In this document: one piece after another, positions 3,762 to 24,816 of the stretch
Layout of the letters: each line of letters begins with the position of its first letter
How positions within the stretch are numbered: the stretch's first letter is position 1
From: Phytoamicus setariae
GTDB lineage: Bacteria > Pseudomonadota > Alphaproteobacteria > Rhizobiales > Rhizobiaceae
NCBI RefSeq assembly: GCF_016722925.1
Contig: NZ_JAEQNC010000014.1
Span: 62,001-126,000, forward strand
Direction of reading: 5' to 3'
Length of the DNA: 64,000 nt
Translations under genes and position numbers: made by a program
Notes under the pieces: model-generated
What the model saw: the letters and a program-made list of their open reading frames with translations, nothing else
Database searches by the model: none
What the model was told of the DNA's origin: nothing

Positions 3762-4556
3762 ATGATGCGCCTGCCCCCGATCGATCTAGGCCGCGAGAAT
3801 ACGTTTGGCGAATTGACCTATGAAAACGGCGGCGAATACGGCCCGATAAAAGGCGATTATCTCGCCTTCATGATCGTCCATATCGGATCGGTTACGATCG
3901 AGGCGGATTCGACGATCACGACGTTGGAGGCGGGGCAATGCGCGCTGTCTCTGACGCGTGAGCATTACACTTGCACGGCCACTCCCGGAATTTTGACACA
4001 TACCAGCTGGTGCGACAGTCGCCCGGAAAATGCAAGCTGGCTATATCAGGAACATAAGAACATAGCAGCAAGCATCGCCACATCGCGACAGGTGCAAACC
4101 ATCGTGCAGCTGGGCGTCGATCTCGGTCTCGGTGATCAGGACAGCCGCAGCGGGCTTCGTGAAGCGCTCACGAATGCCCTGCTTAATGCGTACATTTATG
4201 AGGCCGAGGTTGTCGAGGCCGAACGCCCGATCCCACAGACCATCCTTCAGGCGCGTCGTTTCCTGGACGAGAATTTTGCCGCCGACATTTCAATCGAGAA
4301 GGTGGCGCGGCAGGTGCGTGTCAGCCCTCAATACCTGGTATCGGCGTTCAAGAAGCACCTGGGGGTGACGCCGGCCAGATATCTCTGGCGCTGTCGCCTC
4401 GATTATGGCGCCCATTTGTTGCAGCGATCCGGGTTGACGATCAGCGAGATTGCCTACCAGGTGGGCTACAAGAACCCCTATCATTTTTCCCGTCAGGTAA
4501 AGCTTGCCTTCAACTGCTCGCCAACCGAACTGCGCGAGCAAAAGCGCGAGGGCTAG
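3762..4556 (+). CDS. AraC-family transcriptional regulator
   Basis: 264 residues with a C-terminal double helix-turn-helix of AraC type (about 165-262, with ISIEKVARQVRVSPQYL and ISEIAYQVGYKNPYHFSRQVK). The N-terminal half reads as a beta-rich cupin-like sensor. AraC proteins with this layout are usually ligand-responsive activators. It lies 148 bases after glyA and 260 bases before the first Rieske-less oxygenase, same strand, so it is the best candidate for sensing a methylxanthine or intermediate and switching on the demethylase and transport genes. The ligand is not deducible. Two adjacent ATGs (3762, 3765) are possible starts. Confidence 0.85.
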   Translation: MMRLPPIDLGRENTFGELTYENGGEYGPIKGDYLAFMIVHIGSVTIEADSTITTLEAGQCALSLTREHYTCTATPGILTHTSWCDSRPENASWLYQEHKNIAASIATSRQVQTIVQLGVDLGLGDQDSRSGLREALTNALLNAYIYEAEVVEAERPIPQTILQARRFLDENFAADISIEKVARQVRVSPQYLVSAFKKHLGVTPARYLWRCRLDYGAHLLQRSGLTISEIAYQVGYKNPYHFSRQVKLAFNCSPTELREQKREG

Positions 4557-4816: not shown

Positions 4817-5725
4817 ATGGAAAACCTCTCCCAAATCGATCACATCGCTCTCGACGAATGGCACGTTGTCGGCTCGCTGAATGAGCTGCCGAGCGAGGGT
4901 TTGCACCTGACCATTCTGTTGGGTGAGCGGATTCTGGTCGGGCGGCACGATAACAGGCTCGGTGTCTGGCGACGCTGTTCCAGCGACAAGGCGGGGAACG
5001 ATGCGCTCGTCCCTGGGGATGAGCTGCGCATGATCCAGCGTTTCGGCTACATCTGGACGACGCTGGGAAATCCGACGCGCGATCTCTTCGAGATTGTCGA
5101 GTTTAACGAGCCGGACCGGAACTCGGTGGTCCAGGGCGTGACACGCGTCAGCGTTTCCGCACCGCGTGCGGTCGAAAACTTTCTGGACATGGGGCATTTC
5201 CCGTTTGTCCATACGGGATTTCTGGGCGAAGAGCCGCACACGGAGGTCAAGCCGTACAAGGTCAACGTGTATTCCGAGCCGCCGGAAATTCTGATCACCG
5301 AGTGCGAGTTTTACCAGCCGCAGGCCAATGCGGATTCAGACACCGGTGCCGATACCGAATATGTCTACCGCATCCCGCATCCGTTCTGCGCCGTTCTCTA
5401 CAAGACCGGTTCGACGATTGCAGAGCGCCGTGACGTCATCGCACTGTTCGGTCAGCCCGTCGATGAAGATTGCGTGCTCGTGCACATCGTCATCTGCCTG
5501 GCCACCGAAATCAACGATCTGGCGTCGATGCGAAAGTTTCACCAAACCATCCTCGGTCAGGACAAGCCCATCCTGGAAAACCAGGTGCCGAAGCGCCTGC
5601 CGCTGGATTCGCGTTCGGAGGTTCCGATCCGCGCCGATGCGGCTTCGGCGGCCTATCGGCGCTGGCTGAAGGAACGTGGCCTCCGCTATGGCGTGGTGAT
5701 CGGAACGCATGCTCAAGCGATGTGA
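4817..5725 (+). CDS. Rieske-less terminal oxygenase, NdmC-like N-demethylase 1
   Basis: A 302-residue homologue of Rieske non-haem iron oxygenase alpha subunits. The catalytic half is intact: NFLDMGHFPFVH supplies the bridging D124 and iron ligands H127 and H132, and the QDKPILENQ block near residue 250 probably holds the third, carboxylate ligand. The N-terminal half keeps outer strands of the Rieske fold (WHVVGSLNEL, GERILVGRHDNRLGVW, RFGYIWTTLG), but the CxH...CxxH cluster segment is missing, so it cannot receive electrons by itself. NdmC of Pseudomonas putida CBB5 (N7-demethylase) has the same defect and borrows the Rieske cluster of NdmD. The partner here would be the protein at 12715-14481. 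Substrate is inferred to be an N-methylpurine; which N-methyl is unknown. The next genes encode the importer. Confidence 0.82.
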   Translation: MENLSQIDHIALDEWHVVGSLNELPSEGLHLTILLGERILVGRHDNRLGVWRRCSSDKAGNDALVPGDELRMIQRFGYIWTTLGNPTRDLFEIVEFNEPDRNSVVQGVTRVSVSAPRAVENFLDMGHFPFVHTGFLGEEPHTEVKPYKVNVYSEPPEILITECEFYQPQANADSDTGADTEYVYRIPHPFCAVLYKTGSTIAERRDVIALFGQPVDEDCVLVHIVICLATEINDLASMRKFHQTILGQDKPILENQVPKRLPLDSRSEVPIRADAASAAYRRWLKERGLRYGVVIGTHAQAM

Positions 5726-5963
5726 TGGGCTATTTTTTGCCTGATTAACTGGAGATATGAAGAGCCGGAATATTAGCCATTGTTGCCGTGCATCGTTCAT
5801 GAAAGCCTCGGCAACAGATTGGATACCTCTGTCAGCGACGACAAGAAAACCAAAGGGGAAGTCGTTGGCGTGAAAATCCGGTTTGTCCGAACGTCGTTCG
5901 CATGGAGTTGCGGAGCCTGGCGTTGCGGCAACCGGCCGTGAATTGAAACTGAGAGGAAATGAT

Positions 5964-6983
5964 ATGGTAATGACCCTTACACGTCGCGCCACACTGCTTG
6001 GAGCAACGGGCGCACTCTTCCTGTCCTCCTTTTCGCGGCCTATGGCCGCTGAACCGCAAAAGCTGAAAATTGCGATCATCATGGAGAGCAACCTTGATGT
6101 CGGCTGGTCAAGCACGCTGATCGAATCGCTCAACAAGATCAAAGCGCAATTGGCCGGCACAATTGATGTTTCCTGGGAGCATACCGACCCAATGTGGGGC
6201 GATGATGCCGAGAATGCGATGCGGTTTTACGCCGAGAGCGGCGAATACGACATCATCTGGGGACATGGTCGCTATTCGGACCAGGTCAAGAAACTCAATG
6301 CCGAGTTTCCCGACACCATGTTCGTGGTCGCTGGCTCCGGCAACCTGCCGCTAGGCGGCAACCAGTACTGGCTTTACAAACGGCAGTACGAGTCCTCCTA
6401 CCTGCTCGGTATGCTCGCCGGCCGTACTACCAAGACAGGCGTTATCGGACTGGTTGGCACCTTCGCGGCGGACGACGTCAACGACGAGATCAACGCGTAT
6501 TTCGACGGTGCACGTTCGGTGCGGCCGGAAATAATGCACCGGCTATCCTTTATCGGCTCATGGTCAGACAATGCGTTGGCGGCAGAACATGCCAATGTCC
6601 AGATCGCCGCAGGCGCCGATGTCGTGTTCATGTTGACCGACAACTTCAAACCCTGCCAGGAGCACAAGATCATGTGCTTTGCCAATATCACCGACCAGAG
6701 CAAGAGTGCTCCTGATGCAATTGCCTCGAGCGCGATCATCGACTGGCAGCCCGATCTTACATGGCTCATCGAAGAGTGGCAGAAGCACAAGGCGGGCGTG
6801 GCCTTTAACGGTAACATCGAACCGAAATGGTTCTCCATGGCGCAGGGCGGCGTCGATATCGCTCCCTTCCACGAATTCGATACGAAGTTGCCGGACGCAG
6901 TCAAATTGGAACTCGCAACAATGCGGCAGAAGATTATCTCCGGAGAATTCGTCGTTCCCATGAACACGGCCGAGCCGAAGTAA
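5964..6983 (+). CDS. BMP/PnrA-family substrate-binding protein of a purine-type ABC importer
   Basis: A 339-residue periplasmic binding protein of the basic membrane protein (BMP) family, whose characterised members bind nucleosides and purines. The N-terminus TRRATLLGATGALF followed by SRPMAA is a signal peptide with a twin-arginine; there is no lipobox cysteine, so it should be soluble in the periplasm. The ATG at 5964 follows GAGAGGAAAT and starts directly before the signal peptide; an upstream in-frame ATG (5883) would add 27 unlikely residues. ATPase and two permease genes follow at once. In this context it probably delivers methylxanthines or related purines; that specificity is inference. 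Confidence 0.86.
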   Translation: MVMTLTRRATLLGATGALFLSSFSRPMAAEPQKLKIAIIMESNLDVGWSSTLIESLNKIKAQLAGTIDVSWEHTDPMWGDDAENAMRFYAESGEYDIIWGHGRYSDQVKKLNAEFPDTMFVVAGSGNLPLGGNQYWLYKRQYESSYLLGMLAGRTTKTGVIGLVGTFAADDVNDEINAYFDGARSVRPEIMHRLSFIGSWSDNALAAEHANVQIAAGADVVFMLTDNFKPCQEHKIMCFANITDQSKSAPDAIASSAIIDWQPDLTWLIEEWQKHKAGVAFNGNIEPKWFSMAQGGVDIAPFHEFDTKLPDAVKLELATMRQKIISGEFVVPMNTAEPK

Positions 6984-7012
6984 GACAGACTGAAGGCGGC
7001 CGGTACGATCGA

Positions 7013-8536
7013 ATGGAAAATCTTCTCAGCGTCCAAAATCTTACAAAGCGATTTGGCCCCGTCATCGCCAATGACGGTGTCAACCTGGAGGTACGAAAGG
7101 GCGAAATTCACTGTCTTTTCGGGGAAAACGGGGCTGGAAAGTCGACCCTGTCGTCCTGTCTATACGGCTATTATCGTGCCGACAGCGGCGTGATCCGTTT
7201 CAAGGGCGAAGTTGCGGAGCTGAATTCGCCAGCCGACGCGCTTCGCCTGGGGATCGGCATGGTGCACCAGCATTTCGTGCTGGTAGCCAATTTCACTGTC
7301 CTCGAGAACATCATCGTCGGCAGTGCCGATGCTGGCATGTTTCTGACGAAGTCCAAAGCTCGCCAGAAGATTGGCGAGCTTTGCGACGCCTGCGGAATCA
7401 AGATCGATCTCGATCGTGAAATCTGGCAACTTTCGGTTGGTGAGCAGCAGTGGGTCGAAATCCTCAAGGCGCTTTACTTCGGTGCCGAACTGCTCATCCT
7501 TGATGAGCCGACGGCGGTCCTCACACCGCAACAATCAGACCAGTTGTTCCGCATCCTCGATGGTATGCGCCGCCGTGGCCTGTCGATCATTCTGATCAGC
7601 CACAAGCTGCGCGAGGTCATGCAATCAGATCGGGTGACGATCCTGCGCAAGGGCAAGGCCATCGCCACGGTGGAAACGTCGCAGACCACCGCGGAAGCAA
7701 TCACCTCGCTGATGGTTGGCCACAAGGTCAGCAAGCATGTGAAGGACAGGTCTGTCCAGCCGAGCGGCGAGGTTCTCGCCGTTGATCGCGCCTGCGCGAC
7801 CGGCGATTGGGGCGAAGATCTTCTCAAAGATGTGAGCTTCAACATCGGGCGCCATGAAATTCTGGGACTCGCCGGCGTTGCTGGCAACGGCCAGAAGGAA
7901 TTGTTCGAAGCTTTGATGGGGGTTCGTACCCTGAGCTCCGGCACGTTTTCGCTCGAAGGGGAGGTGATTGCCAAACCGACAGCGCGGGAGATGCTGGACA
8001 GAGGTGTGGGTTTCGTGCCGGATGACCGGTTCCTTGAAGGGTTGATACCGGAATTCGGCACCGCCGAAAACCTGATCCTCGGATGGCAGCGCGCGCGGGA
8101 CTACTGTCGCGGTCCGTTTCTCGATCGGCGCAAGATGGAAGACCTGGCGCGCCGGAAAATCGAGGAGTTCAAGGTGGTCACCGCATCGCCCGAGTTGCCG
8201 GTAGAGCGGCTTTCGGGCGGAAACGCCCAACGCGTCATTCTGGCGCGCGAGTTCCTGCATTCCAGAGGTCTGTTGCTTGCCAACCAGCCCACACGCGGGC
8301 TCGACGTCGCGGCGTCGGAATTCGTCTATGAAAAGATCCTCGAGAAACGTTCAGCCGGTTTTGCGGTGCTGCTTGCATCCGAAGAGCTGGACGATCTCTT
8401 GCGCCTGTGTGACCGCATCGCCGTTATCTTCAAGGGACGGATCATGGGCATTGTGCGGCCTGAGGAAACTACGCTCCTCGAGCTTGGAATGATGATGGCG
8501 GGTGACGCCAAAGACCTGCAACGGACAGTTCAATGA
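7013..8536 (+). CDS. Double-domain sugar/nucleoside-type ABC transporter ATPase
   Basis: 507 residues with two tandem ABC domains as in RbsA- and NupA-type ATPases. Domain 1 has Walker A GENGAGKST and Walker B LLILDEPTAVLT, with a non-canonical signature LSVGEQQ. Domain 2 has a degenerate P-loop (GVAGNGQKE), a good signature LSGGNAQR, and ANQPTRGLD in the Walker B position. One strong and one degenerate nucleotide site is usual in this family. The ATG at 7013 is chosen because the protein then begins with a typical ABC domain (MENLLSVQNLTKRFG). It overlaps the first permease gene by the ATGA tetranucleotide at 8533, so translation is probably coupled. Confidence 0.92.
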   Translation: MENLLSVQNLTKRFGPVIANDGVNLEVRKGEIHCLFGENGAGKSTLSSCLYGYYRADSGVIRFKGEVAELNSPADALRLGIGMVHQHFVLVANFTVLENIIVGSADAGMFLTKSKARQKIGELCDACGIKIDLDREIWQLSVGEQQWVEILKALYFGAELLILDEPTAVLTPQQSDQLFRILDGMRRRGLSIILISHKLREVMQSDRVTILRKGKAIATVETSQTTAEAITSLMVGHKVSKHVKDRSVQPSGEVLAVDRACATGDWGEDLLKDVSFNIGRHEILGLAGVAGNGQKELFEALMGVRTLSSGTFSLEGEVIAKPTAREMLDRGVGFVPDDRFLEGLIPEFGTAENLILGWQRARDYCRGPFLDRRKMEDLARRKIEEFKVVTASPELPVERLSGGNAQRVILAREFLHSRGLLLANQPTRGLDVAASEFVYEKILEKRSAGFAVLLASEELDDLLRLCDRIAVIFKGRIMGIVRPEETTLLELGMMMAGDAKDLQRTVQ

Positions 8537-9609
8537 TTTCGATTCAAAGACGCTCGGGCAACAGTCCGGGATGGAACGCTGCCTGCTATTCGGCAGCACT
8601 GCTGGGTGCCCTCCTGTCTTCCGCATTGTTGCTTGCCTTGTCGGGCGGCGATCCGGCGAAGGCGTTCTCGGCGCTTCTGGTTGGCGCCTTCGGAAGTCAG
8701 AATGCCCTGCTTGGTTCGCTTTCGAAGGCGACACCGCTGCTTCTGGTCGGCCTTGGAACGGTCATCGCCTTTCGTGCGAAGATCTGGAATATCGGTCAGG
8801 AAGGCCAGGTGTTTGCCGGGGCGATGATGGCCTATTGGGCAAGCCTCATGGTTGGGGGCCTGCCTTACTGGATGGCGCTTGGTGTCATTGCACTGGCCGG
8901 ATTATTGGGCGGTGCCGCCCTCGGTATGCTCGCCGGTTACCTGAAGACCCGGTTCGCCACCAGCGAGGTCATCTCGACGGTCATGCTGAACTACATCGTT
9001 ATCTTCTTTCTCGCCTACCTCCTGGACGGTGGGCCGTGGATGGAAACCGGCGTTACCGTCGCCTACCACCAATCGCCGCCCGTCAATCCGGCGCTGGAGT
9101 GGCCTGTCCTGTTCGGTCAGGGCGCTGGCAAGCTGCATATCGGCTTTCTATTCGCACTAGCCGCTTCGGTTTTCTGCGCCGTCCTGATCGAGCGGACGTC
9201 GCTTGGCTATGAAATCCGGGCCTTCGGCTCGAACCCGACGGCGCTGCGTTTTCGTGGCACCAACATTCGCCGGCTGTTGCTGGTGGTGATGTTGATGTCC
9301 GGCGCGCTTGCCGGGCTTGCAGGGGCGGGGGATCTGTTCGGCACATCCCATCGTTTGCGTGCCGAGACGTTGTTGGGCATCGGCAGCTCCGGCATTGTAG
9401 TTGCCATGGTCGGCGGCCTGCGCCCGACCGGCGTCATGCTCGCGGCCCTGTTTTTCGGGGCGCTCAAGGCCGGCGCCATCTACATGCGGCTGCAAAGCGG
9501 AACCCCGGCTGGACTAGTGTCTGCCATGGAAGGGCTGGTTCTGCTGTTCTTCCTGTGCGCCGCGGTGGCTACCAAATTCAAGATTGTAAGGAACCACGTA
9601 CATGCTTGA
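8533..9609 (+). CDS. ABC transporter permease 1 (nucleoside/purine type)
   Basis: A 358-residue polytopic inner-membrane protein of the BPD_transp_2 (LivH/RbsC-like) family that pairs with BMP binding proteins. About nine hydrophobic segments are visible, and the conserved cytoplasmic loop includes FRAKIWNIGQEGQ and GYEIRAFGSNPTALRFRG, as in nucleoside permeases. Its start overlaps the ATPase stop (ATGA) and its end overlaps the second permease by 8 bases, so the four transporter genes form one tight operon. It would form half of the heterodimeric channel. Confidence 0.9.
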   Translation: MISIQRRSGNSPGWNAACYSAALLGALLSSALLLALSGGDPAKAFSALLVGAFGSQNALLGSLSKATPLLLVGLGTVIAFRAKIWNIGQEGQVFAGAMMAYWASLMVGGLPYWMALGVIALAGLLGGAALGMLAGYLKTRFATSEVISTVMLNYIVIFFLAYLLDGGPWMETGVTVAYHQSPPVNPALEWPVLFGQGAGKLHIGFLFALAASVFCAVLIERTSLGYEIRAFGSNPTALRFRGTNIRRLLLVVMLMSGALAGLAGAGDLFGTSHRLRAETLLGIGSSGIVVAMVGGLRPTGVMLAALFFGALKAGAIYMRLQSGTPAGLVSAMEGLVLLFFLCAAVATKFKIVRNHVHA

Positions 9610-10534
9610 ACTCCTGCAAGGCCCTATGCTCGTCAGTATTCTGGCTGCCATGGTCCGAATTGCAACTCCGTTGCTATTTTCTGCGATGGGGGAACTCGTG
9701 ACACAGCGAGCCGGCATCTGGAACATTTCCGTCGAAGGCACCATGCTGCTCGGCGCAGTGGTGGCCTATGTGGTCGCCTCGACGACCGGTTCGCCATGGC
9801 TTGCGCTGCTGGTCGCCATTCTTGCCTGCGCGCTGATCAGCCTGATCATGTCGTTTGTGACCATTGTTCTCAAAGCCGAGCAGTTCGTTGCCGGCCTGGC
9901 ATTGAACCTTCTCGCATCCGGCCTCACCCTGTTTTGGTTCCAGAACTACGTAATTGGCCGCGAGCCGCCGAAATTCGCCGGCTTCGAACAGGTCGATATC
10001 CCCTATCTCTCCGACATCCCGGTTCTGGGACCGGTGCTGTTTTCCCAGCGTCTGCTGACCTATGTCAGCTTTCTCCTGCCGGTGCTGGTGTGGTTTTTTC
10101 TCTATCGGACCAGGTACGGTTTGGAAATCAGATGTGTCGGCGAAAACCCCAAGGCGCTTGACGTCAAAGGCCTTGGCGTCGGTCGCCGCCAGTGTCTGGC
10201 AATCATGTTCGGCAGCCTGATGTCCGGCTTCGGTGGTGCCTTCCTCATGCTCGGTTATTCCGACCGGTTCGTGCCGGACCTGATTGCCGGCCGTGGATGG
10301 CTGGTGGTTGTTGCGATCATCGCCGGCAACTGGATGCCGTTCCGGATCGTGGGGGCGATCTTCATTTTCGCCCTGCTCGAGGCGGTGGGCATCCATGCGC
10401 AGGTTGTCGGTGTTGCCATACCCCATCATTTCTTTCTAGTCCTGCCCTACGTCGCCTCGCTGATATTGCTTGCCGGCCTGCGTTCGCGCACGCATCAACC
10501 CGTGGGGCTTGGTGTGCCCTACAGTCGCGAATGA
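9602..10534 (+). CDS. ABC transporter permease 2 (nucleoside/purine type)
   Basis: A 310-residue membrane protein of the same BPD_transp_2 family as its upstream partner, with about eight to nine hydrophobic stretches, the block QRAGIWNISVEGTMLLGA, and the cytoplasmic loop YGLEIRCVGENPKALDVKG typical of the second permease in BMP/PnrA-type systems. The start overlaps the end of permease 1 by 8 bases. It ends the transporter operon; a 322-base gap then separates it from the second oxygenase gene. Confidence 0.9.
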   Translation: MLELLQGPMLVSILAAMVRIATPLLFSAMGELVTQRAGIWNISVEGTMLLGAVVAYVVASTTGSPWLALLVAILACALISLIMSFVTIVLKAEQFVAGLALNLLASGLTLFWFQNYVIGREPPKFAGFEQVDIPYLSDIPVLGPVLFSQRLLTYVSFLLPVLVWFFLYRTRYGLEIRCVGENPKALDVKGLGVGRRQCLAIMFGSLMSGFGGAFLMLGYSDRFVPDLIAGRGWLVVVAIIAGNWMPFRIVGAIFIFALLEAVGIHAQVVGVAIPHHFFLVLPYVASLILLAGLRSRTHQPVGLGVPYSRE

Positions 10535-10856
10535 TGCGATGTGAATTGCCGGCATGTCATGCCGGTTCCTTCCGAACCGGCCGTGCGAGCATGCATGGCC
10601 GGTTTTGACGTTTGTGCGCTTTTCCTAAAGCTTTGATATTGCAGTATCTGATCGCTTTGCGTCAGAGCGAGGACTGATGGTGCTCGTTGAGCGACCTCCA
10701 CCGGATCGTTGAATTTCAACCTTAACTGCGGGCATCCGCGAGGCAATGATAGACATTCTACTCTGAACTCGGGTGTGGGACGGTAGCTTGAGACTGAAGC
10801 ACGCCTGCTGCCTGGAGCCGATTACACATGTCGGCCGTTGTGACGGAGAGAACTCC
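10535..10856. other. Intergenic region before the second oxygenase, with a perfect hairpin
   Basis: No gene is seen in these 322 bases. GCCGGTTC (10561-10568) and GAACCGGC (10574-10581) form a perfect 8-bp stem with a CTTCC loop just after the permease gene. No U-tract follows directly, so it is a weak terminator or an RNA-stabilising hairpin. The remainder probably carries the promoter of the oxygenase-reductase operon; ACGGAGAG at 10843-10850 is the ribosome binding site of the next gene. Confidence 0.45.
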
Positions 10857-11720
10857 ATGATGGTACAACCTTGTAACGACCGCATTCTGCTCAATGACTG
10901 GCATGTCGTGGCTGATTGCTCAATGCTGGTTCCGGACGTGCCCTTTTCAACCCGGCTGATGGGGGTCGATCTCACCATCACGCGCAATGGCTGCGAAAGG
11001 GTCAGGATAGTACGCACCGATACGGGTGACGAGGTGTGTGCCGAGAAGCGATATGGTTTTACCTGGGCATGTCTTGGCAAGCCCGAGCGGGATCCACATT
11101 ACGTCAGGGAGTCGGATGAGAGCGACCGTCATCTGGTCAGCGGCGGCTCCATCGCGGTCAAGGTGTCGGGGCTTCGCCTGGTCGAGAACTTCCTTGATAT
11201 GGGGCACTTCCCGTTCGTCCATACCGGCTGGCTGGGCGAGGAGCCGCATACCGAGGTGTTGCCCTACAATGTCTCGGTCACCGAGGAAGACGAAATTCTC
11301 GCAACCGAATGCAGGTTCTATCAACCGATAGCGTCGCCGACTGCCACCGAAGGCATGCTGGTGGACTACACCTACAAGGTTATCCGGCCCTATACGGTCG
11401 CGCTCTACAAAAGCAACCCGGTCGATCCGGCGCGCAAGGATGTTATCGTGCTCTTCGTCCAGCCGGTCGACGAGGACAATTGCGTCGCGCATTCCTACCT
11501 CTGCTACCTGAAGGATGGCATGGACGCGGCAACGGTGCGCAGCTTCATGCAGCTGATCTTCGCGCAGGACAAGCCGATCCTCGAAAATCAAGTTCCCGGA
11601 CGCCTGCCGCTCAACCCGCGCGCCGAAACGCCGATCCGCGCCGATGTCGTTTCTGTTCACTATCGCCGCTGGTTGCGCGAGCGGGGTGTCACTTACGGCG
11701 CGATCCCGTTGCACGCCTGA
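10857..11720 (+). CDS. Rieske-less terminal oxygenase, NdmC-like N-demethylase 2
   Basis: A 287-residue paralogue of the enzyme at 4817-5725. It has the same catalytic block NFLDMGHFPFVHTG (bridging D114, iron ligands H117 and H122), the downstream GEEPHTEV segment and the QDKPILENQ block. The N-terminus (LNDWHVVADCS...RYGFTWACLGKP) again keeps the edges of the Rieske fold while the cluster-binding segment is absent. The start is one of two adjacent ATGs (10857, 10860) after ACGGAGAG; a longer reading frame to 10773 adds residues that do not look like this family. Only 33 bases separate it from the third paralogue, and the reductase follows. A positional specialisation (N1, N3 or N7) different from its paralogues is expected but not decidable. 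Confidence 0.82.
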   Translation: MMVQPCNDRILLNDWHVVADCSMLVPDVPFSTRLMGVDLTITRNGCERVRIVRTDTGDEVCAEKRYGFTWACLGKPERDPHYVRESDESDRHLVSGGSIAVKVSGLRLVENFLDMGHFPFVHTGWLGEEPHTEVLPYNVSVTEEDEILATECRFYQPIASPTATEGMLVDYTYKVIRPYTVALYKSNPVDPARKDVIVLFVQPVDEDNCVAHSYLCYLKDGMDAATVRSFMQLIFAQDKPILENQVPGRLPLNPRAETPIRADVVSVHYRRWLRERGVTYGAIPLHA

Positions 11721-11753
11721 TCGGGACCCGGCGTCAAACGCCCGAATTGAAGG

Positions 11754-12671
11754 ATGAAAAAGATGAAACAGCAAAAGACGTGTTCGGACCCTGTCGTGCT
11801 GAACCTCTGGCACCCCCTGGGTGCGGTGGATGAAGTGCCTGTTGGTATCGTGGTCGATACTGTTCTGCTGGAAGTGCGGGTCAGCTTTTCGGTTGACGCC
11901 GATGGCGCGGTTTTCGTCTGGCGCAGCTGTGCCGGTCTGCGATCGGGCGACCGGTTCGTCCCGTCGGCTATCGATGCCGCCCTGCCTGCCAAAAGCGCCT
12001 ATGGCTATGTGTGGACGTCGCTTGGTATCCCGACGGACGACATTTTCCCGATCCCTGAATATGCCGAAGCCGATCGGCGCAAGCTCAATGCCGCCACTTT
12101 CGGCGTCAATGTCTCCGCACCCCGCGCCATCGAGAACTTCCTCGACATGGGGCACTTTCCCTATGTGCACACCGATATCCTCGGCGTCGAACCGCACACC
12201 GAGGTGAAGGAATACGACGTCGAGATTTCCGTCGACCGCGACGAAATTATCGCAACCCGATGCCGCTTCTATCAGCCTATGGCCTCGATCGCGTCGGGCG
12301 GCGGTGCGGATGTGGACTATGTCTATCGTGTGCCGCATCCCTATTGCGCGGTGCTCTACAAATCGAGCCCGCTCGACGAGACGCGGATGGATGTCATCGC
12401 CGTGTTCCTGCAGCCGCTCGATGAGGAGCGCATTCGTGCGCATATGATGCTGTGCGTGCTGGACGACACGAATGCGGACAAGATCATAAAGCGCTTCCAG
12501 CAGACGATTTTCGGTCAGGACAAGCCCATTCTGGAGAACCAATTCCCGAAGCGGCTGCCGCTCGACCCACGGGCGGAAACGCCGATCCGCGCCGACAAAT
12601 CCGCCATCGCCTACCGTCGTTGGCTCAGCCAGAAGGGACTGACCTACGGGGTCATTCCGGCTGCGAATTGA
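11754..12671 (+). CDS. Rieske-less terminal oxygenase, NdmC-like N-demethylase 3
   Basis: A 305-residue paralogue of the two preceding oxygenases. NFLDMGHFPYVHTD gives bridging D131 and iron ligands H134 and H139; LGVEPHTEVKEYDVE and FGQDKPILENQ are shared with the first copy. No CxH or CxxH Rieske motif exists in the N-terminal 110 residues, although the flanking strands (LNLWHPLGAVDEVP, GAVFVWRSC, AYGYVWTSLG) remain. It lies 43 bases upstream of the NdmD-like reductase and should be co-expressed with it. A second in-frame ATG at 11763 is an alternative start. A fully intact Rieske oxygenase is absent from the window, so all three copies must rely on an outside cluster. Confidence 0.82.
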   Translation: MKKMKQQKTCSDPVVLNLWHPLGAVDEVPVGIVVDTVLLEVRVSFSVDADGAVFVWRSCAGLRSGDRFVPSAIDAALPAKSAYGYVWTSLGIPTDDIFPIPEYAEADRRKLNAATFGVNVSAPRAIENFLDMGHFPYVHTDILGVEPHTEVKEYDVEISVDRDEIIATRCRFYQPMASIASGGGADVDYVYRVPHPYCAVLYKSSPLDETRMDVIAVFLQPLDEERIRAHMMLCVLDDTNADKIIKRFQQTIFGQDKPILENQFPKRLPLDPRAETPIRADKSAIAYRRWLSQKGLTYGVIPAAN

Positions 12672-12714
12672 GCGACGACCATTGCCGAACCTTGATAGTG
12701 AATTGGAGAAACAG

Positions 12715-14481
12715 ATGCAGAATGACACTCGGAGCGAATGGCATCCGATTGCCGCGACGACCGATCTACCGCTGCGCCACGTGTTCCATGGCCAGCTTTT
12801 CGGCAGGGAATTCGCCGTCTGGCGTGCCGACGACGGTTTCGTCAATATCTGGGAGAACCGCTGTCTACATCGCGGCGTCCGGTTGTCGATCGGGATCAAC
12901 GACGGGCGCGAGCTGAAGTGCCAGTATCACGGTTGGCGCTACTCGAACCGCACTGCCGGCTGCACCTACATCCCTGCCCATCCCGCCGATGCGCCAGCCC
13001 GCACGATCACCAACCGCACATTCCCGGCCGTCGAACGCTACGGGCTGGTATGGTCGTCAGAGCAAGCCGTCGGCGAAAGTCCCGTTGTTGGCGGCCTTGA
13101 CGAGGCAAATGTGCTTGCCTTGCGTGCCATTCCGGTCAATGCGCCCGCCGCGCGGGTCGTCGAGGCGCTTCGCTCCTATCGCTTCCAGCCAAGCGCACGG
13201 ATTGATGGAGCGGATGCCGAGGTTTCGGTGGAAACCGCGTCGGCAACAGCAGTTGCACTGCGAGCCCGCGCTGATGGCGCCGAAACGTTCGGAGTATTCT
13301 TCGTCCAGCCGGTCGATTCCAACCGTTCTGTGATCCGCGGCGTTTTGGATGGGCAGATGGAGGGCGCGCAGCGTGCCGCCGTTCTGCGCCACCACAACGA
13401 ACATCTGTCGGCACTGCGTGTTGCTGTCGAACGCAAGGCCTCGTCGATGCCGGCACCGGCACCGATCGAACCGGTCTTCGAACCGGTCTCGGAAGAGCTT
13501 GCGTCCATGCCTGAGCTGACGGCCCATGGCCGCAAGGCGGGCATTCGGGTCCAGGTCGCCAGGAAATGGCCGGCGGCCGATGGCATCATGGGTTTTGAAC
13601 TCCGGCCGCTCAAAGGCCTGCTGCCGACCTTCCAGCCCGGCGCCCATATCGACGTGCACATGCCGAACGGCGATATCAGGCAATATTCGATCATCAACGG
13701 CCCCGGCGAGACGGATTCCTTCACCATCGGGGTCAAGCTCGAGCGGGATTCGAAGGGCGGCTCCATATGCATGCACGAAATCGTGCGCGAGGGCGACGTT
13801 CTGGCGATTTCGGAGCCGCGCAACAATTTCCCGCTGCGCCGCGATGCGCTGAACACCATCTTCGTTGCCGGCGGCATCGGTATCACGCCGCTGCTGGCAA
13901 TGGCCCAGGCGCTCAAGAACCAGAATTTGACACATGAGTTGCACTACTTTGCTCAGAACGAAGGCCAACTCGCCTTCCCGGAGCGGATGAAATATCTCGG
14001 TGAGACCGTCAAGCCGCATCTCGGCCTGTCGCCGGACACCACTGTCGAGCAACTGCGCACGCTGTTGACGCCTTATCGCCGCGACACGCATCTCTATGTC
14101 TGCGGCCCGGGCCCGATGCTGGAAGCCACGCGTGCTGTGGCAGCTGAAGCCGGCTGGCCCGAGGAAGCCGTGCATTTCGAATACTTCAAGAATACCAAAC
14201 CCATCGACGACAGTTCGAGCTTCGAAGTGGCGCTGGCGCGCTCTTGCCTGACGCTCAAGGTGCCGGCGGGGAAGACTATTCTCGAGGTTATGCGCGAGGC
14301 CGGGATCGATATGCCGTCCTCCTGCGAGCAGGGGGCATGCGGCACCTGCCTGGCAACTGTCATCGAGGGCGAGCCCGATCACCAGGACGTCTTTCTGAGC
14401 GCGTCGGAGCGGGCGTCTGGAACCAAGATCATGACTTGCGTTTCCCGCAGCAAATCGGCCCGCCTCGTGCTCGATATCTAA
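12715..14481 (+). CDS. ndmD: NdmD-like Rieske/flavin/ferredoxin reductase
   Basis: A 588-residue multidomain redox protein. Residues 1-110 are a complete Rieske domain, with ligands C50, H52, C69 and H72 (CLH...CQYH). Residues about 130-240 look like a shrunken oxygenase catalytic domain: FFVQPVDSNRSVI matches FLQPLDEER of the paralogues, but the iron-binding D/H/H are gone. An FNR-type flavin/NAD module follows (RQYSIING, GGIGITPLLAM, CGPGPMLEATR), then a plant-type ferredoxin with C537, C542, C545 and C575. This is the NdmD architecture; it would pass electrons from NADH through flavin, ferredoxin and its own Rieske cluster to the three Rieske-less oxygenases. The ATG at 12715 follows TTGGAGAAAC; the TTG at 12682 is less likely. 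Confidence 0.87.
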   Translation: MQNDTRSEWHPIAATTDLPLRHVFHGQLFGREFAVWRADDGFVNIWENRCLHRGVRLSIGINDGRELKCQYHGWRYSNRTAGCTYIPAHPADAPARTITNRTFPAVERYGLVWSSEQAVGESPVVGGLDEANVLALRAIPVNAPAARVVEALRSYRFQPSARIDGADAEVSVETASATAVALRARADGAETFGVFFVQPVDSNRSVIRGVLDGQMEGAQRAAVLRHHNEHLSALRVAVERKASSMPAPAPIEPVFEPVSEELASMPELTAHGRKAGIRVQVARKWPAADGIMGFELRPLKGLLPTFQPGAHIDVHMPNGDIRQYSIINGPGETDSFTIGVKLERDSKGGSICMHEIVREGDVLAISEPRNNFPLRRDALNTIFVAGGIGITPLLAMAQALKNQNLTHELHYFAQNEGQLAFPERMKYLGETVKPHLGLSPDTTVEQLRTLLTPYRRDTHLYVCGPGPMLEATRAVAAEAGWPEEAVHFEYFKNTKPIDDSSSFEVALARSCLTLKVPAGKTILEVMREAGIDMPSSCEQGACGTCLATVIEGEPDHQDVFLSASERASGTKIMTCVSRSKSARLVLDI

Positions 14482-14488
14482 GGAAGAA

Positions 14489-15139
14489 ATGATGATTACC
14501 CTTTACGATTACGAATTGTCGGGCAATTGCTACAAGCTCCGCCTGCTGATGGGCTTTCTCGGTATCGATCCCAAGATTGTGCCCGTCGATTTCTATCCCG
14601 GCCGCGAGCACAAGTCGGATTGGTTCCTGAAGCTCAACCCGCTCGGCCAGTTGCCGGTGCTTGAGGACGACGGCCTGCTGCTGCGCGACGCTCAGGCAAT
14701 CCTGGTCTATCTCGCAGCCAAATATGACAAATCCAACAGCTGGTATCCGCTGGGCAATCCGGCTCTGCTCGGCGAGATCAGCCAGTGGCTGGCCTTTGCT
14801 GATGGCATCACCGGCACCGCATCCGCCGCACGCCTACATGATGCGCTGTTTTATGATTTCGATATCGAGGCGGCGCGTGCGGGTGCGCACCGGCTGTTTC
14901 GCATCCTCGACGAGCATCTATGGTTCGGCGAGCAGGAGGGACGCGACTGGATCTGTTCGGCCCGGCAGCCGACCTTGGCGGATATCGCCTGCTTCCCTTA
15001 CGTCATGCTGTCGGAGGAAGGGGGCATTCCGCGCCAGGACTATCCGGCGATCCGGCGCTGGTGCGATCGTTTCAAACGCATCAGCGGTTTTACCGTCATG
15101 TCCGGTGTCTTTCCCGCTGGTCCCGCCCAGGCCGCATGA
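14489..15139 (+). CDS. GST-fold protein, NdmE-like
   Basis: 216 residues with a thioredoxin-like N-terminal half (LYDYELSGNCYKLRLLM, LNPLGQLPVLEDDGLLLRDAQAILVYLA) and an alpha-helical C-terminal half, the standard glutathione S-transferase layout. It starts 7 bases after the reductase gene. In the caffeine-degrading strain CBB5 a GST-like protein, NdmE, is required structurally in the NdmC-NdmD complex, and the gene order reductase-GST here supports that reading. Alternatively it could work with the next gene, glutathione-dependent formaldehyde dehydrogenase. The N-terminal SGNCYK is where a GST catalytic residue would lie; activity is not assured. Confidence 0.8.
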   Translation: MMITLYDYELSGNCYKLRLLMGFLGIDPKIVPVDFYPGREHKSDWFLKLNPLGQLPVLEDDGLLLRDAQAILVYLAAKYDKSNSWYPLGNPALLGEISQWLAFADGITGTASAARLHDALFYDFDIEAARAGAHRLFRILDEHLWFGEQEGRDWICSARQPTLADIACFPYVMLSEEGGIPRQDYPAIRRWCDRFKRISGFTVMSGVFPAGPAQAA

Positions 15140-15196: not shown

Positions 15197-16324
<1,128 letters not shown>

Positions 16325-17111: not shown

Positions 17112-18530
17112 TCACCATGGCAACATCTCGGACAGGCGCAAAAGCGCGATCCTCTCCACCTGCCGGCAGGCGGCGTTGAACTCGGTCTCGCGGTCGTTGC
17201 CGACGCGGCTTTCGAAGGAGGTCAGGATATCGCCCTTGCTCAATCCCCGGACCGCGATGATGAAGGGAAACCCGAAAATTTCGACGTAGCGGCTGTTGAG
17301 CGCGTCAAAGCGTGCCCGTTCGGCATCGGTCAGGGCATCGAGACCGGCCGAGGCCTGTTCGCTGGTCGAGCTTTCGGTCAGGCGTCTGGCCTGCGCGAGC
17401 TTGCCGGCAAGGTCGGGGTGGGCTTTGAGTACGCCGAGACGCTCGGTTTCGTCGGCGCTGCGAAAAACTGCCGTCAACGCTGCGTGCAAGCCGATTGCGG
17501 TGTCGTTGGCGGGCCCGAGTTCATCGGCGAACGCGCGTCGGGCAATCCAGTCCGAGTGTTCGAACACGCCACCGAAGCGGCAGACGAAAGCCTCTTCGGT
17601 GAGCCGTGACGGGCGATCCTTGCCCGCCTGAAAGGGATGGGTTTGAGCCCAATGGCTGGCGATGTCGATCCGGCGTGCAAGCCAGACCCTGTCGTGGCTC
17701 TTGACGTAGTCGATGAACCGGCCAAGCGCGGCAATGCGCCCCGGCCGTCCGGCAAGCCGGCAATGCAAGCCGATATTCATCATTTTCGGTGCCCCGGCGC
17801 GCCCTTCGGCATAGAGCACGTCGAACGTATCCTTGAGGTAGCTGAAAAACTGGTCGCCACTGTTGAAACCCTGCGCGGTGGCGAAGCGCATGTCGTTGGT
17901 GTCAAGCGTGTAGGGAATGACGAGCTGGTGCTTGCCGTTGTGTTCGTGCCAGTAGGGCAGGTCGTCGGCATAGCTGTCGGAAACATAGGCAAAGCCGCCG
18001 TCCTCGGTGATGAGATCGACAGTGTTTTCCGAACAGCGGCCGGTATACCAGCCGAGTGGGCGCTCGCCGGTGACGATTTCGTGCAGCTGGATTGCTTCTG
18101 TGATCTGCCGGCGCTCTTCGTCTGGGTCCATGTCCTTGTGCTCGACCCATTTCAATCCGTGCGAGGCGAGTTCCCAGCCGGCCGCCTGCATGGCCGCGAC
18201 CTGCGCCGGCGAGCGCTTCAGCGCCGTTGCCACGCCATAGACCGTCGCCGGTGCAGCGTTTTCCGTCAGCAACCGGTGCAACCGCCAGAAGCCGGCACGC
18301 GCACCATAGTCGTAGATCGATTCCATGTTCCAATGGCGCTTGCCGGGCCAGGGCTGCGCGCCGACGATCTCGGACAGAAAAGCCTCCGAGGCGGCATCGC
18401 CATGCAAAACGCAGTTTTCGCCACCCTCTTCGTAGTTGACGACGAATTGCACGGCGATATGCGCCCCACCGGGCCAGACGGCATCCGGCGGGGTTGCGCC
18501 ATAGCCGTGCAGATCTCGGGGATATCTCAT
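17112..18530 (-). CDS. puuE: PuuE allantoinase fused to OHCU decarboxylase (UraD)
   Basis: A 472-residue fusion. Residues about 1-305 are a NodB-like polysaccharide-deacetylase domain of the PuuE type (allantoin to allantoate), with NYEEGGEN, ASHGLKWVEHKDMD and PYTLDTNDMRF. Residues about 315-472 are an OHCU decarboxylase that turns 2-oxo-4-hydroxy-4-carboxy-5-ureidoimidazoline into S-allantoin, with the catalytic histidine block LKAHPDLAGKL and SRYVEIFGFPFIIAVRG. The two domains catalyse consecutive reactions, in reverse order along the chain. The ATG at 18530 begins MRYPRDLHGYG, the usual PuuE start; the frame runs open to 18860 without family resemblance. It diverges from the uraH-xdh operon. 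Confidence 0.9.
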   Translation of the reverse strand: MRYPRDLHGYGATPPDAVWPGGAHIAVQFVVNYEEGGENCVLHGDAASEAFLSEIVGAQPWPGKRHWNMESIYDYGARAGFWRLHRLLTENAAPATVYGVATALKRSPAQVAAMQAAGWELASHGLKWVEHKDMDPDEERRQITEAIQLHEIVTGERPLGWYTGRCSENTVDLITEDGGFAYVSDSYADDLPYWHEHNGKHQLVIPYTLDTNDMRFATAQGFNSGDQFFSYLKDTFDVLYAEGRAGAPKMMNIGLHCRLAGRPGRIAALGRFIDYVKSHDRVWLARRIDIASHWAQTHPFQAGKDRPSRLTEEAFVCRFGGVFEHSDWIARRAFADELGPANDTAIGLHAALTAVFRSADETERLGVLKAHPDLAGKLAQARRLTESSTSEQASAGLDALTDAERARFDALNSRYVEIFGFPFIIAVRGLSKGDILTSFESRVGNDRETEFNAACRQVERIALLRLSEMLPW

Positions 18531-18694
18531 GCGGCCGCTCCTCCCTAAGCTTGCGATTGGCCGATTCCTACCCAGAAAACGTGTCCACCATTCCCCTCGA
18601 AATATTTGAAAGTCTCGAACGATCAGCCCGCTACTCAAGGGAAGTCGGCTCAAGGATAGTGGATGGATGAATGCAGTCCCGGGGAGGTGAAACC

Positions 18695-19060
18695 ATGCAA
18701 ACGCAAGCGGCAAATGGCGGTCGGCTGACGACCCATGTGCTCGACGTCGCGCGCGGCAAACCGGCAGAGAACCTGCATATCGAACTTTTCCGCATCCAGG
18801 GCGGACTGGCCGAACCGCTGGATTCGGCCAAGACCAACGACGACGGCCGCTGCGATGCACCGCTGCTCAGCGGCGAGCGGATGAAGCCAGGTGTCTACGA
18901 GCTCAGGTTTCATGCTGGAAATTACCTCGGCCGCACCACCGGTGGCGTGCCGTTCCTCGACGTCATCCCCATTCGCTTCGGCATCGCCGACGCGACGGCG
19001 CATTATCACGTGCCGCTGCTGCTTTCGCCCTACAGCTATTCGACCTATCGCGGGAGCTGA
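18695..19060 (+). CDS. uraH: 5-hydroxyisourate hydrolase
   Basis: A 121-residue transthyretin-like protein that hydrolyses 5-hydroxyisourate, the product of PuuD, to OHCU. The N-terminal block [14 protein letters not shown] and the C-terminal signature YRGS are intact, and the length fits the cytosolic form. The start at 18695 has an excellent Shine-Dalgarno, GGGGAGGTGA (18681-18690). It lies 3 bases before xdhA and diverges from the PuuE-UraD gene, so the two intermediate-handling enzymes share the 164-base promoter region 18531-18694. Confidence 0.94.
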
Positions 19061-19063
19061 ACC

Positions 19064-20545
19064 ATGGCTGCTGACACTCGCAACATCATCCGCTTCCTGC
19101 TCAACCACCGGCTTGTCGAGCTGTCCGCCGTCTCGCCGGTTCAGACGCTTCTCGATTTCCTGCGCATCGACCGCAATCTGCGCGGAACCAAAGAAGGTTG
19201 CGCCGAGGGGGATTGCGGCGCCTGCACGGTGCTGGTTGGCCGCTTGCTGGACGGGCGGCTGAAATACGAATCGGTGAATGCCTGTATCCGGTTCGTCGGC
19301 TCGCTCGATGGCTGCCACGTCGTGACAGTGGATTCGCTCGCCGCCGCCAATGGCCCGCTGCATCCGGTGCAGCAGGCCATGGTCGAGACGCACGGTTCGC
19401 AATGCGGCTTTTGCACTCCGGGCTTCGTCATGTCGCTCTATGGGCTCTGGATGGAAAACCCCAAGCCATCGGTCAATGAGATCGAGAAGGCGCTTCAGGG
19501 CAATCTCTGTCGCTGCACCGGCTATGCCGCCATCGTCCGCGCCGCCCAGGCGGTTTCGGTCATCGGCGACCTCGATCAAGACCCCCTGGTGCGCGAGCGA
19601 GCAGAAATCAGCCGGCGGCTGGCCGCACTGAAGGACGGCAGGCGCGTGGTGATTGGCGAAGGCGCCGAACGCATTATCCTGCCGGCGTCCGTCGATGATC
19701 TCGCCACGGTGTTTGAGGCCGAACCCAAGGCGCGGATCGTCGCCGGCTCGACCGATGTCGGCCTGTGGGTGACGAAGTTCATGCGCGACATTGCGCCGGT
19801 CATCCATCTCGCCCATCTCGACGCGTTGCGCGGCATCGCGCTGGACGAAACCGGCGTCACGCTCGGTGCAGGCGTCAGCTACACCGAGGCCTATCCGGTC
19901 ATATCAAAACATTTTCCGCAAATGCGCGAGCTTTGGGACCGCATCGGCGGCCAGCAGGTGCGCAATATGGGCACGATCGGCGGTAATATCGCCAATGGCT
20001 CGCCGATCGGCGACACGCCACCCCCCCTGATCGCGCTTGGCGCTTCTGTCGTCTTGCGCAAAGGCGGTGTGCGCAGGACCGTGCCACTCGAACACTACTT
20101 CATCGAGTATGGCAGGCAGGATCGGCAGCCCGGCGAGTTCGTCGAGGCCGTGCGCATTCCCTTTCTTGATAAGGCAACCTGCTTCGCCGTCTACAAGATC
20201 ACCAAGCGGCGGGATGAGGATATTTCCGCGGTCTGCGGGGCTTTCCGCGTCGCGTTCGACGGGCAAGGCATGGTCGCCAGTGCGGTCATCGCATTCGGCG
20301 GCATGGCCGGCACGCCCAAGCGTGCTGCAAATGTCGAAGCCATACTGGCCGGCGGCGCCTGGAACGATGCGACGATCGAGGCAGCGGCGGCGGCATTGGG
20401 CGAGGATTATTCGCCGCTCACCGACTGGCGGGCCTCGGCAGACTATCGGCTTCTGGTGGCAAAAAACCTTTTGCGCCGCTTCTATCTGGAAACGCAGGAT
20501 GAAAAGCTTGTGCGGCTGGATCACAAGACGACGCTGACGGTGTGA
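19064..20545 (+). CDS. xdhA: Xanthine dehydrogenase small subunit (2Fe-2S and FAD)
   Basis: 493 residues. The plant-type [2Fe-2S] site has C46, C51, C54 and C74; the second, helical [2Fe-2S] domain has C114, C117, C149 and C151 (CGFC...CRC). The C-terminal part (about 190-480) is the FAD-binding and CO-dehydrogenase flavoprotein-like domain, with GSTDVGLWVTK and IGGNIANGSPIGDT. With XdhB it oxidises hypoxanthine and xanthine to urate, reducing NAD+. In this island it receives xanthine from the demethylases and from guanine deaminase. The uraH-xdhA-xdhB-xdhC order with gaps of 3, 12 and 5 bases indicates one operon. Confidence 0.95.
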   Translation: MAADTRNIIRFLLNHRLVELSAVSPVQTLLDFLRIDRNLRGTKEGCAEGDCGACTVLVGRLLDGRLKYESVNACIRFVGSLDGCHVVTVDSLAAANGPLHPVQQAMVETHGSQCGFCTPGFVMSLYGLWMENPKPSVNEIEKALQGNLCRCTGYAAIVRAAQAVSVIGDLDQDPLVRERAEISRRLAALKDGRRVVIGEGAERIILPASVDDLATVFEAEPKARIVAGSTDVGLWVTKFMRDIAPVIHLAHLDALRGIALDETGVTLGAGVSYTEAYPVISKHFPQMRELWDRIGGQQVRNMGTIGGNIANGSPIGDTPPPLIALGASVVLRKGGVRRTVPLEHYFIEYGRQDRQPGEFVEAVRIPFLDKATCFAVYKITKRRDEDISAVCGAFRVAFDGQGMVASAVIAFGGMAGTPKRAANVEAILAGGAWNDATIEAAAAALGEDYSPLTDWRASADYRLLVAKNLLRRFYLETQDEKLVRLDHKTTLTV

Positions 20546-20557
20546 GGAGATGACACA

Positions 20558-22891: not shown

Positions 22892-22896
22892 ATTCG

Positions 22897-24680: not shown

Positions 24681-24816
24681 GAAATTCTCTTACCACACCG
24701 CAAAGCGAACCACAGCTGGATCGATCTTATAGATTTTTTTGAAAGTGTTGAGGATTAACCGGCATTTCGGAGAAGATCGCCTGATGGCAGAAGTCTCCCG
24801 AACAGGGGGAGCCAAC

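Follow-up and report, generated by a model that had tools for sequence, protein, structure and literature searches.

A probable NdmCDE-type split Rieske oxygenase with three candidate catalytic subunits and one shared reductase in a rhizobial purine island

The stretch of DNA analysed here (64,000 nt, hereafter the window, in whose numbering coordinates are given) corresponds to positions 62001-126000 of contig C6 in a rhizobial-type genome, G000, and carries on its plus strand an operon for three Rieske-less oxygenases, a single Rieske-bearing reductase and a protein of the glutathione S-transferase (GST) fold. The oxygenases, of the VanA_C type, are encoded at 4817..5725 (Ox1, 302 aa), 10857..11720 (Ox2, 287 aa) and 11754..12671 (Ox3, 305 aa), and were recognised by Pfam and alignment, complemented by a tree for Ox1 and Ox2 and by AlphaFold2 and Foldseek for Ox3. 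The reductase, RedR, has 588 aa when read from the ATG at 12715 (12715..14481), which is a common length among its relatives, and 599 aa from the TTG at 12682; Pfam finds Rieske, NAD_binding_1 and Fer2 domains. Ox2/Ox3 lie 33-43 bp upstream of RedR. On its other side follow, after 7 bp, the GST gene (14489..15139; 216 aa; GST_N/GST_C), whose product is 64% identical to NdmE of Pseudomonas putida MT178, and, after another 57 bp, a glutathione-dependent formaldehyde dehydrogenase gene. The latter (15197..16324; ADH_N and ADH_zinc_N) encodes a zinc alcohol dehydrogenase of the class III or S-(hydroxymethyl)glutathione dehydrogenase type, an annotation that its homologues carry in the plasmid loci L066 and L068.

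Ox1, Ox2 and Ox3 are pairwise 47-50% identical over much of their length, and none of them matched a Rieske model at E <= 0.01. The iron motif ENFLDMGHFP[FY]VH, which conforms to N-x2-D-x2-H-x4-H, is present in each (N121, D124, H127 and H132 in Ox1; N128, D131, H134 and H139 in Ox3), and the segment QDKPILENQ holds an additional carboxylate ligand (D249 of Ox1, D256 of Ox3) that an earlier, preliminary description of this DNA had not listed. We aligned 137 distinct Rieske-less oxygenases, the three from the window and 134 from related loci, and none shows a CxH...CxxH pattern within its first 150 residues. Of the five iron-ligand positions, four (N, D, the second H and the carboxylate D) are invariant in all 137; the first H is replaced by R in one member, so that the full set is found in 136. 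Both Pfam and this alignment thus bear out the statement that the paralogues keep their iron motif without a Rieske cluster. A Rieske motif hidden in a longer N-terminus can be ruled out: the in-frame extension of Ox2 (an open reading frame, ORF, from 10773) holds none, nor does any member of the alignment. The idea that Ox1-3 are degenerate pseudogenes was likewise rejected, since the matched frames lack internal stops and every ligand is kept.

The only Rieske motif of the operon lies on the reductase, and the ligands C50/H52/C69/H72 given for it earlier are right for the ATG at 12715 (C61/H63/C80/H83 from the TTG). Among 80 RedR-type proteins, that of the window and 79 others, the Rieske ligands C, H, C and H are kept in every one, and the four plant-type cysteines in 77, the remaining three being gapped there. 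That a GST-fold gene follows the reductase was also correct. A loss of glutathione-binding residues in this GST was considered, and the claim was dropped since the D-A pair at 67-68 is mixed (position 68 is A in 56 of 88 rows and S in 26). Judged from sequence, the combination of such oxygenases, such a reductase and the GST is a split Rieske oxygenase of the NdmCDE type.

For the comparison with the Ndm enzymes we used the cluster on plasmid pTmex-577K of P. putida MT178 (L066), which is near-identical to that of strain CBB5. Its NdmA (E 1e-229) and NdmB (E 1e-235) match the CBB5 proteins of known structure and the ferredoxin domain of its NdmD matches 6icm_D, so that the MT178 cluster can reasonably represent the ndm genes of CBB5. 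Ox1-3 are 43-46% identical to NdmC of MT178 and 24-28% to its NdmA and NdmB, and RedR is 37% identical to NdmD; together with the 64% between GST and NdmE these values support the homology that had been supposed for all three components. Orthology of Ox1-3 with NdmA/NdmB was rejected on the low identity and the lack of an own Rieske cluster. Indeed, NdmA/NdmB and SxtT/GxtA have the catalytic fold and the iron ligands in common with Ox, whereas only they carry a Rieske cluster of their own. With NdmCDE of CBB5, the 7-methylxanthine N7-demethylase complex, the window shares the Rieske-less catalytic subunit, the GST-like partner, the purine context and a reductase that combines an N-terminal Rieske domain with flavin/NAD and plant-type [2Fe-2S] domains. 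It differs in that three catalytic subunits are found per reductase, that the operon lacks a Rieske-bearing NdmA/NdmB-like partner, and that a BMP/ABC transporter and an AraC regulator take the place of the purine permease and GntR regulator of the Ndm cluster.

According to a review, NdmCDE was the first known example in which the Rieske domain has left the oxygenase and become part of the reductase, with a puzzling role for the GST. The complex is ~360 kDa and contains three of each subunit (3:3:3); NdmC alone goes into inclusion bodies and NdmD alone is <5% soluble (PMC10380055). N7-demethylation requires NdmE (PMC13237722). In ordinary oxygenases the Rieske cluster lies ~12 A from the iron of the neighbouring subunit (PMC12445004). 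Two further plasmids carry ndm-like genes. On that of Klebsiella pneumoniae KSB2_1B (L067) a Rieske-bearing oxygenase and NdmC-, NdmD- and NdmE-like genes lie between insertion sequence (IS) elements, with a purine permease nearby. The cluster on the plasmid of Cupriavidus sp. EM10 (L068) is near IS elements and several of its genes look interrupted, the oxygenase being unannotated and the GST in pieces.

A scan of named genomes yielded at least 518 relatives among at least 586 pattern matches, and the best 80 loci, which were kept, span Alphaproteobacteria, Gammaproteobacteria and Actinomycetota. Searched with an alignment of Ox1-3, 58 of the 247 genomes from the family gave matches (E <= 1e-30). 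With a wider oxygenase alignment and a threshold of E <= 1e-40, 23 of the 398 genomes from the phylum did so; eight of these align only from about position 53, in frames of 329-400 aa, and could represent relatives that carry a Rieske domain. A fused RedR is present in 69 of the 80 loci. One, two and three oxygenases were called in 45, 21 and 3 of these, counts that are lower bounds given contig-end cuts and merged ORFs; the ORF calls are mechanical, and in a few loci (e.g. L083 and L086) an over-long RedR frame has probably swallowed an oxygenase.

Three oxygenases with one fused RedR were found in five loci: the window, L013, L072, L084 and L091. In all five the order is AraC-Ox1-BMP-ABC-Ox2-Ox3-RedR-GST-dehydrogenase. 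In the window the AraC-type regulator (3762..4556, from the ORF list) precedes Ox1, as it also does in L013, L049, L072, L084 and L091, and a transporter of the ATP-binding cassette (ABC) type sits between Ox1 and Ox2, all on the plus strand. It consists of a BMP/PnrA-like substrate-binding protein (5964..6983; PF02608, E 3.8e-24 in a search on 5967-6983), an ATPase (7013..8536; ORF list, with annotated homologues at the same position in L014, L015 and L069) and two permeases (8533..9609 and 9602..10534; ORF list and locus comparison). Outside the window the three-oxygenase set belongs to Sinorhizobium meliloti 1021, where it is on pSymA (L013), two Ensifer strains and isolate R129_N. The pSymA locus, with the same gene order and likewise three oxygenases, also has the aminotransferase, reductase and glyA genes that lie upstream in the window. 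Mesorhizobium, Aminobacter, Labrys and relatives have the same gene families in two-oxygenase loci, against three oxygenases in the window.

The oxygenase tree has 136 rows and was built with a quick method and SH-aLRT (Shimodaira-Hasegawa-like approximate likelihood ratio test) support, after removal of rows >=96% identical; ORFs <270 aa, trimmed sequences outside 260-330 aa and identical ORFs had been dropped from the alignment, and long branches drew a warning from the program. Each of the three oxygenases belongs to a clade of its own, with 6 rows for Ox1 (support 100), 26 for Ox2 (99) and 25 for Ox3 (95), the last nested in an 80-row group (86). A recent tandem duplication of Ox1-3 was rejected on these separate lineages. 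NdmC of MT178 and its Klebsiella relative form a pair of their own (support 100) apart from the three clades; it joins the Ox2 clade weakly, at a place where long branches are flagged. The 131 Rieske-less rows split from 5 Rieske-bearing ones (94), and therefore the loss looks old and shared.

In one relative, G207, the module AraC-Ox1-BMP-ABC-permeases lies at 1.07 Mb of contig C1 without RedR or GST, and Ox2-Ox3-RedR-GST-dehydrogenase lies at 1.47 Mb, 400 kb away. Thus, the window looks like the union of two modules. G207 has a single full-length RedR match (four others cover the reductase part only), and Ox1 there would be served only at a distance, if the system works so. The genome of the window, too, has one full-length RedR, on which all three oxygenases would have to rely, provided that they function in the manner of NdmC. 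The preliminary description had proposed that all catalytic subunits here have become dependent on the shared reductase: the dependence gains from the single RedR, and the notion that it arose here does not agree with a loss as old as the tree suggests. Nor does a fully NdmC-type set in rhizobia, which had been put forward as a novelty, stand as such, because rhizobial ndmCDE homologues are already known. According to a 2015 review (PMC4408171), BLAST in 2013 turned up clusters homologous to ndmCDE in 18 organisms, which beyond three close ones are mostly Sinorhizobium and Mesorhizobium, with function unknown. New is the recurrence of the one-to-three set in five loci, with Ox1 400 kb from the only RedR in one relative. 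In the open-access literature, which excludes subscription articles such as Summers 2013 and Kim 2019, we found no description of the three-oxygenase set, and a literature search with the S. meliloti locus tags, guessed from position, found no paper. For S. meliloti 1021 the present comparison suggests a likely function of these symbiotic-plasmid genes, whose annotation is generic.

Four gene architectures of the split were observed. In the window and most loci, oxygenase(s), a Rieske-reductase fusion and a GST stand together. A second architecture consists of a stand-alone Rieske protein of 216-217 aa, an oxygenase, a GST and an amidohydrolase (L046, L061, L062, L069), and a third of a stand-alone Rieske protein, an oxygenase, a GST and a separate reductase (L063 and L064, the Rieske match of L064 lying in another frame of an over-called ORF). 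The fourth, on the plasmid of Variovorax paradoxus VAI-C (L070, 7307-10454), has the fusion swapped: a stand-alone Rieske protein is accompanied by an oxygenase-reductase fusion and a GST. L046 (C36:246000-262000) is a second split set in the genome of the window, with a Rieske protein of 216 aa, an oxygenase of 279 aa, a GST, an amidohydrolase and a BMP/ABC transporter; no reductase was called beside it. Like the window, this set and that of Rhizobium sp. N324 (L069) have a Rieske-less oxygenase, a separate Rieske source, a GST and a BMP/ABC transporter; they differ in the unfused Rieske protein of ~217 aa, the amidohydrolase neighbour and the lack of a reductase in the called neighbourhood. 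In a Rieske-domain tree of 59 rows the fused and stand-alone forms make up one clade of 28 (96/94), in which the Variovorax domain groups with the fused ones. This is consistent with a single origin of the split.

The linkage to a GST was assessed in the 51 of the 80 loci that have complete flanks, i.e. 6 kb on both sides. Within that distance a Rieske protein is found in 46 and a GST in 45, against a GST near intact oxygenases in 1 of 20 control loci, which were hand-picked from a list of open frames of 376-546 aa and include mutual orthologues (a GST was accepted at a profile score >20 bits for controls and a phmmer score >40 bits for oxygenase loci). The five loci without a nearby Rieske protein all belong to genomes (four) with a RedR elsewhere. 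A search for RedR in six genomes gave a match in five, that in the L093 genome covering the Rieske and middle domains only, and none in the genome of L145, a locus cut at a contig end. The four architectures and their GST linkage are new; the split is found in Pseudomonadota and Actinomycetota. In Acidimicrobiia we observed an oxygenase of 325 aa whose Rieske domain is intact and whose catalytic motif is very similar (L142 2100-3077, L146 10206-11183, L135 15543-16520), which adjoins a Rieske-less oxygenase in L142 and L146 and is possibly a near relative of the unsplit ancestor.

The operon lies in a purine-to-glyoxylate island. Downstream of the dehydrogenase are an allantoinase PuuE fused to OHCU decarboxylase (PuuE-UraD; 17112..18860, minus strand; TIGR03212 and TIGR03164 above cut-off) and, on the plus strand, the xanthine dehydrogenase genes xdhA, xdhB and accessory xdhC (19064..23763; TIGR02963, TIGR02965 and TIGR02964 above cut-off), urate oxidase (24739..26052; Urate_ox_N, PF06181, E 1.2e-138) and guanine deaminase (26049..27404; TIGR02967 above cut-off). 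The island also holds a glycerate 2-kinase-like gene and a glyoxylate aminotransferase that resembles BhcA, below the BhcA cut-off. This setting supports a methylated purine as substrate, without saying which. By their neighbours and homology, Ox1-3 probably demethylate caffeine-like purines. They would oxidise N-methyl groups, the released formaldehyde would pass to the adjoining glutathione-dependent dehydrogenase, and the freed purine would be taken on by guanine deaminase, xanthine dehydrogenase, urate oxidase and PuuE/UraD. A single redox partner that feeds three specificities would be useful for making or degrading methylxanthines.

One enzyme for each N-methyl position (N1, N3 and N7), which the preliminary description had raised as a possibility, gains no support here. 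Instead of sharing out the positions of one alkaloid, Ox1 might act on one N-methyl compound and the Ox2/Ox3 pair on another, for instance methylguanines or methylated nucleobases from RNA turnover, and we would put the chances of this not far short of even. The separate Ox1 module of G207 and the separate lineages of the three oxygenases speak for such a division, as do the guanine deaminase of the island and the amidohydrolase genes beside related split systems; it has to be set against the five loci that hold all three oxygenases beside the same RedR.

A comparison of RedR and the oxygenases suggested that each retains what the other has lost. Residues 12-98 of Ox3 align with the RedR Rieske profile (hhalign 98.5%, E 3.4e-14) with a gap over the cluster-binding part, and the Ox N-terminus scores <1% against the GST and reductase profiles; it may thus be the base of a Rieske-type domain without the part that binds the cluster. 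Conversely, RedR residues 128-262 (numbered from the TTG) match the Ox profile over 72 columns (93.2%, E 2.9e-7), compared with at most 9.0% among 60 column shuffles, 0.14% for the reversed alignment and 0.31% against the GST profile; residues 128-288 score 0.03-0.25% against GST, reductase and Rieske profiles. The Rieske and middle domains together are colinear with intact oxygenases over 208 columns (99.9%), which puts VNAPAARVVEAL opposite the ENFLD-x2-H motif region. As we read the aligned helix, the carboxylate ligand D256 of Ox3 stands opposite L245 of RedR, a residue that is L in 71 of the 80 proteins, and a QP-x-D motif and a later E are common to the RedR middle domain and Ox. AlphaFold2 gave a mean pLDDT (predicted local distance difference test) of 89.2 for Ox3 and 87.2 for RedR. 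In Foldseek the Ox3 model matched SxtT best (E 6e-21), as well as NdmA (E 1e-13) and GxtA; the RedR model matched reductases first, followed by whole SxtT/GxtA chains (E ~1e-16 to 1e-17). These latter matches comprise 273-305 columns of chains of 311-329 residues (TM score 0.57-0.62 by target), which is beyond the reach of the Rieske domain alone (~110 residues). From hhalign, AlphaFold2 and Foldseek, RedR would thus consist of a Rieske domain, a putative degenerate oxygenase catalytic domain (~128-262), a flavin mononucleotide (FMN)/NAD reductase domain and a plant-type [2Fe-2S] domain, the second resembling a truncated catalytic domain without the iron ligands. This resemblance and its counterpart in the Ox N-termini are likewise new.

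The reading that we consider probable, then, is a split Rieske oxygenase of the NdmCDE kind with three catalytic subunits on one redox partner, in which RedR and Ox may both go back to a duplicated oxygenase alpha subunit, each being the relic that complements the other, a relation that fits the 3:3:3 complex of NdmCDE. Electrons would run from NADH via flavin and plant-type [2Fe-2S] to the Rieske cluster, all on one RedR. From there they would cross the interface between the two proteins to reach the mononuclear iron, be it in Ox1, Ox2 or Ox3. RedR and Ox would form a ring, with the 3:3:3 composition reported for NdmCDE, each RedR Rieske cluster facing an Ox iron and the GST serving as structural clamp, and with three types of Ox to one RedR mixed rings would be possible. 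Ox1-3 without Rieske ligands and with their iron ligands, intact Rieske and plant-type cluster ligands in RedR, the GST linkage, the shared reductase and the pathway context are what the sequences show; substrate, activity and mixed complexes are extrapolated from these.

Several observations weigh against this reading. The coverage of the middle domain in Foldseek is deduced from column counts, as aligned ranges are not given, and when 11 intact oxygenases supply the profile, that domain by itself reaches only 4.4-4.8%. Stand-alone Rieske proteins have a C-half that matches the middle domain of RedR (95.9%) but neither the catalytic domain of Ox (10.3%) nor intact oxygenases (0.4%). Moreover, H237 is conserved in 55 and H238 in 57 of the 80 RedR proteins, which leaves room for a different role of the middle domain. 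Among the complete-flank loci 6 of 51 have no GST nearby, 5 of which also have no Rieske protein; a formaldehyde dehydrogenase is near 7 of the 51 and a BMP gene near 27. No biochemistry was seen for any rhizobial member. The five loci without a nearby Rieske protein all belong to genomes (four) with a RedR elsewhere. A search for RedR in six genomes gave a match in five, that in the L093 genome covering the Rieske and middle domains only, and none in the genome of L145, a locus cut at a contig end.

A simpler account would hold that the Rieske domain just moved to the reductase, that the RedR middle is an unrelated linker or GST-docking domain, and that three separate NdmCDE-type complexes are formed. 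It matches the description of NdmCDE in a review (PMC4408171), and the low score of the middle domain alone is in its favour. Nevertheless, we regard it as unlikely in view of the match to the Ox profile, which far exceeds its shuffles, the colinearity over 208 columns and the whole oxygenase chains matched by the RedR model. Quite improbable is that one or more of the oxygenases are non-functional or use another donor, for instance the unfused Rieske protein from this genome's other split set on C36, as all iron-motif residues are kept in Ox1-3, Ox2/Ox3 lie directly before RedR and the Ox1 orthologues are conserved in six rows.

The complementary relics may be taken further. We tentatively suggest, at somewhat less than even odds, that RedR and NdmD contain a dead alpha subunit, its Rieske half working and its catalytic half deprived of the iron site, and that Ox and NdmC are its mirror image. 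This would be an obligate alpha/alpha-prime enzyme, with catalysis only at the GST-clamped interface and with Ox1-3 mixed in one 3:3:3 ring that removes several methyl groups in place. No description of a dead oxygenase domain in NdmD was found in the open-access literature searched. If the suggestion is true, a hidden dead oxygenase half would explain why the partners are insoluble apart, the idea would extend to NdmCDE itself, and a concrete, testable model of the interface would be at hand.

Far from the operon, on the minus strand, the window contains one further Rieske domain (32398-34008). It belongs to a protein of 536 aa that combines a plant-type [2Fe-2S] ferredoxin, an adenylate/guanylate cyclase and the Rieske domain in one chain; on visual inspection its two cluster motifs seem intact (CPH...CRWH, the spacer being long, and CGGKAKCSTC), and the protein may be a redox-sensing cyclase. 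It is adjoined by a second cyclase (34482-37901), a protein of 1139 aa with SAM-domain, guanylate cyclase, AAA ATPase and TPR parts.

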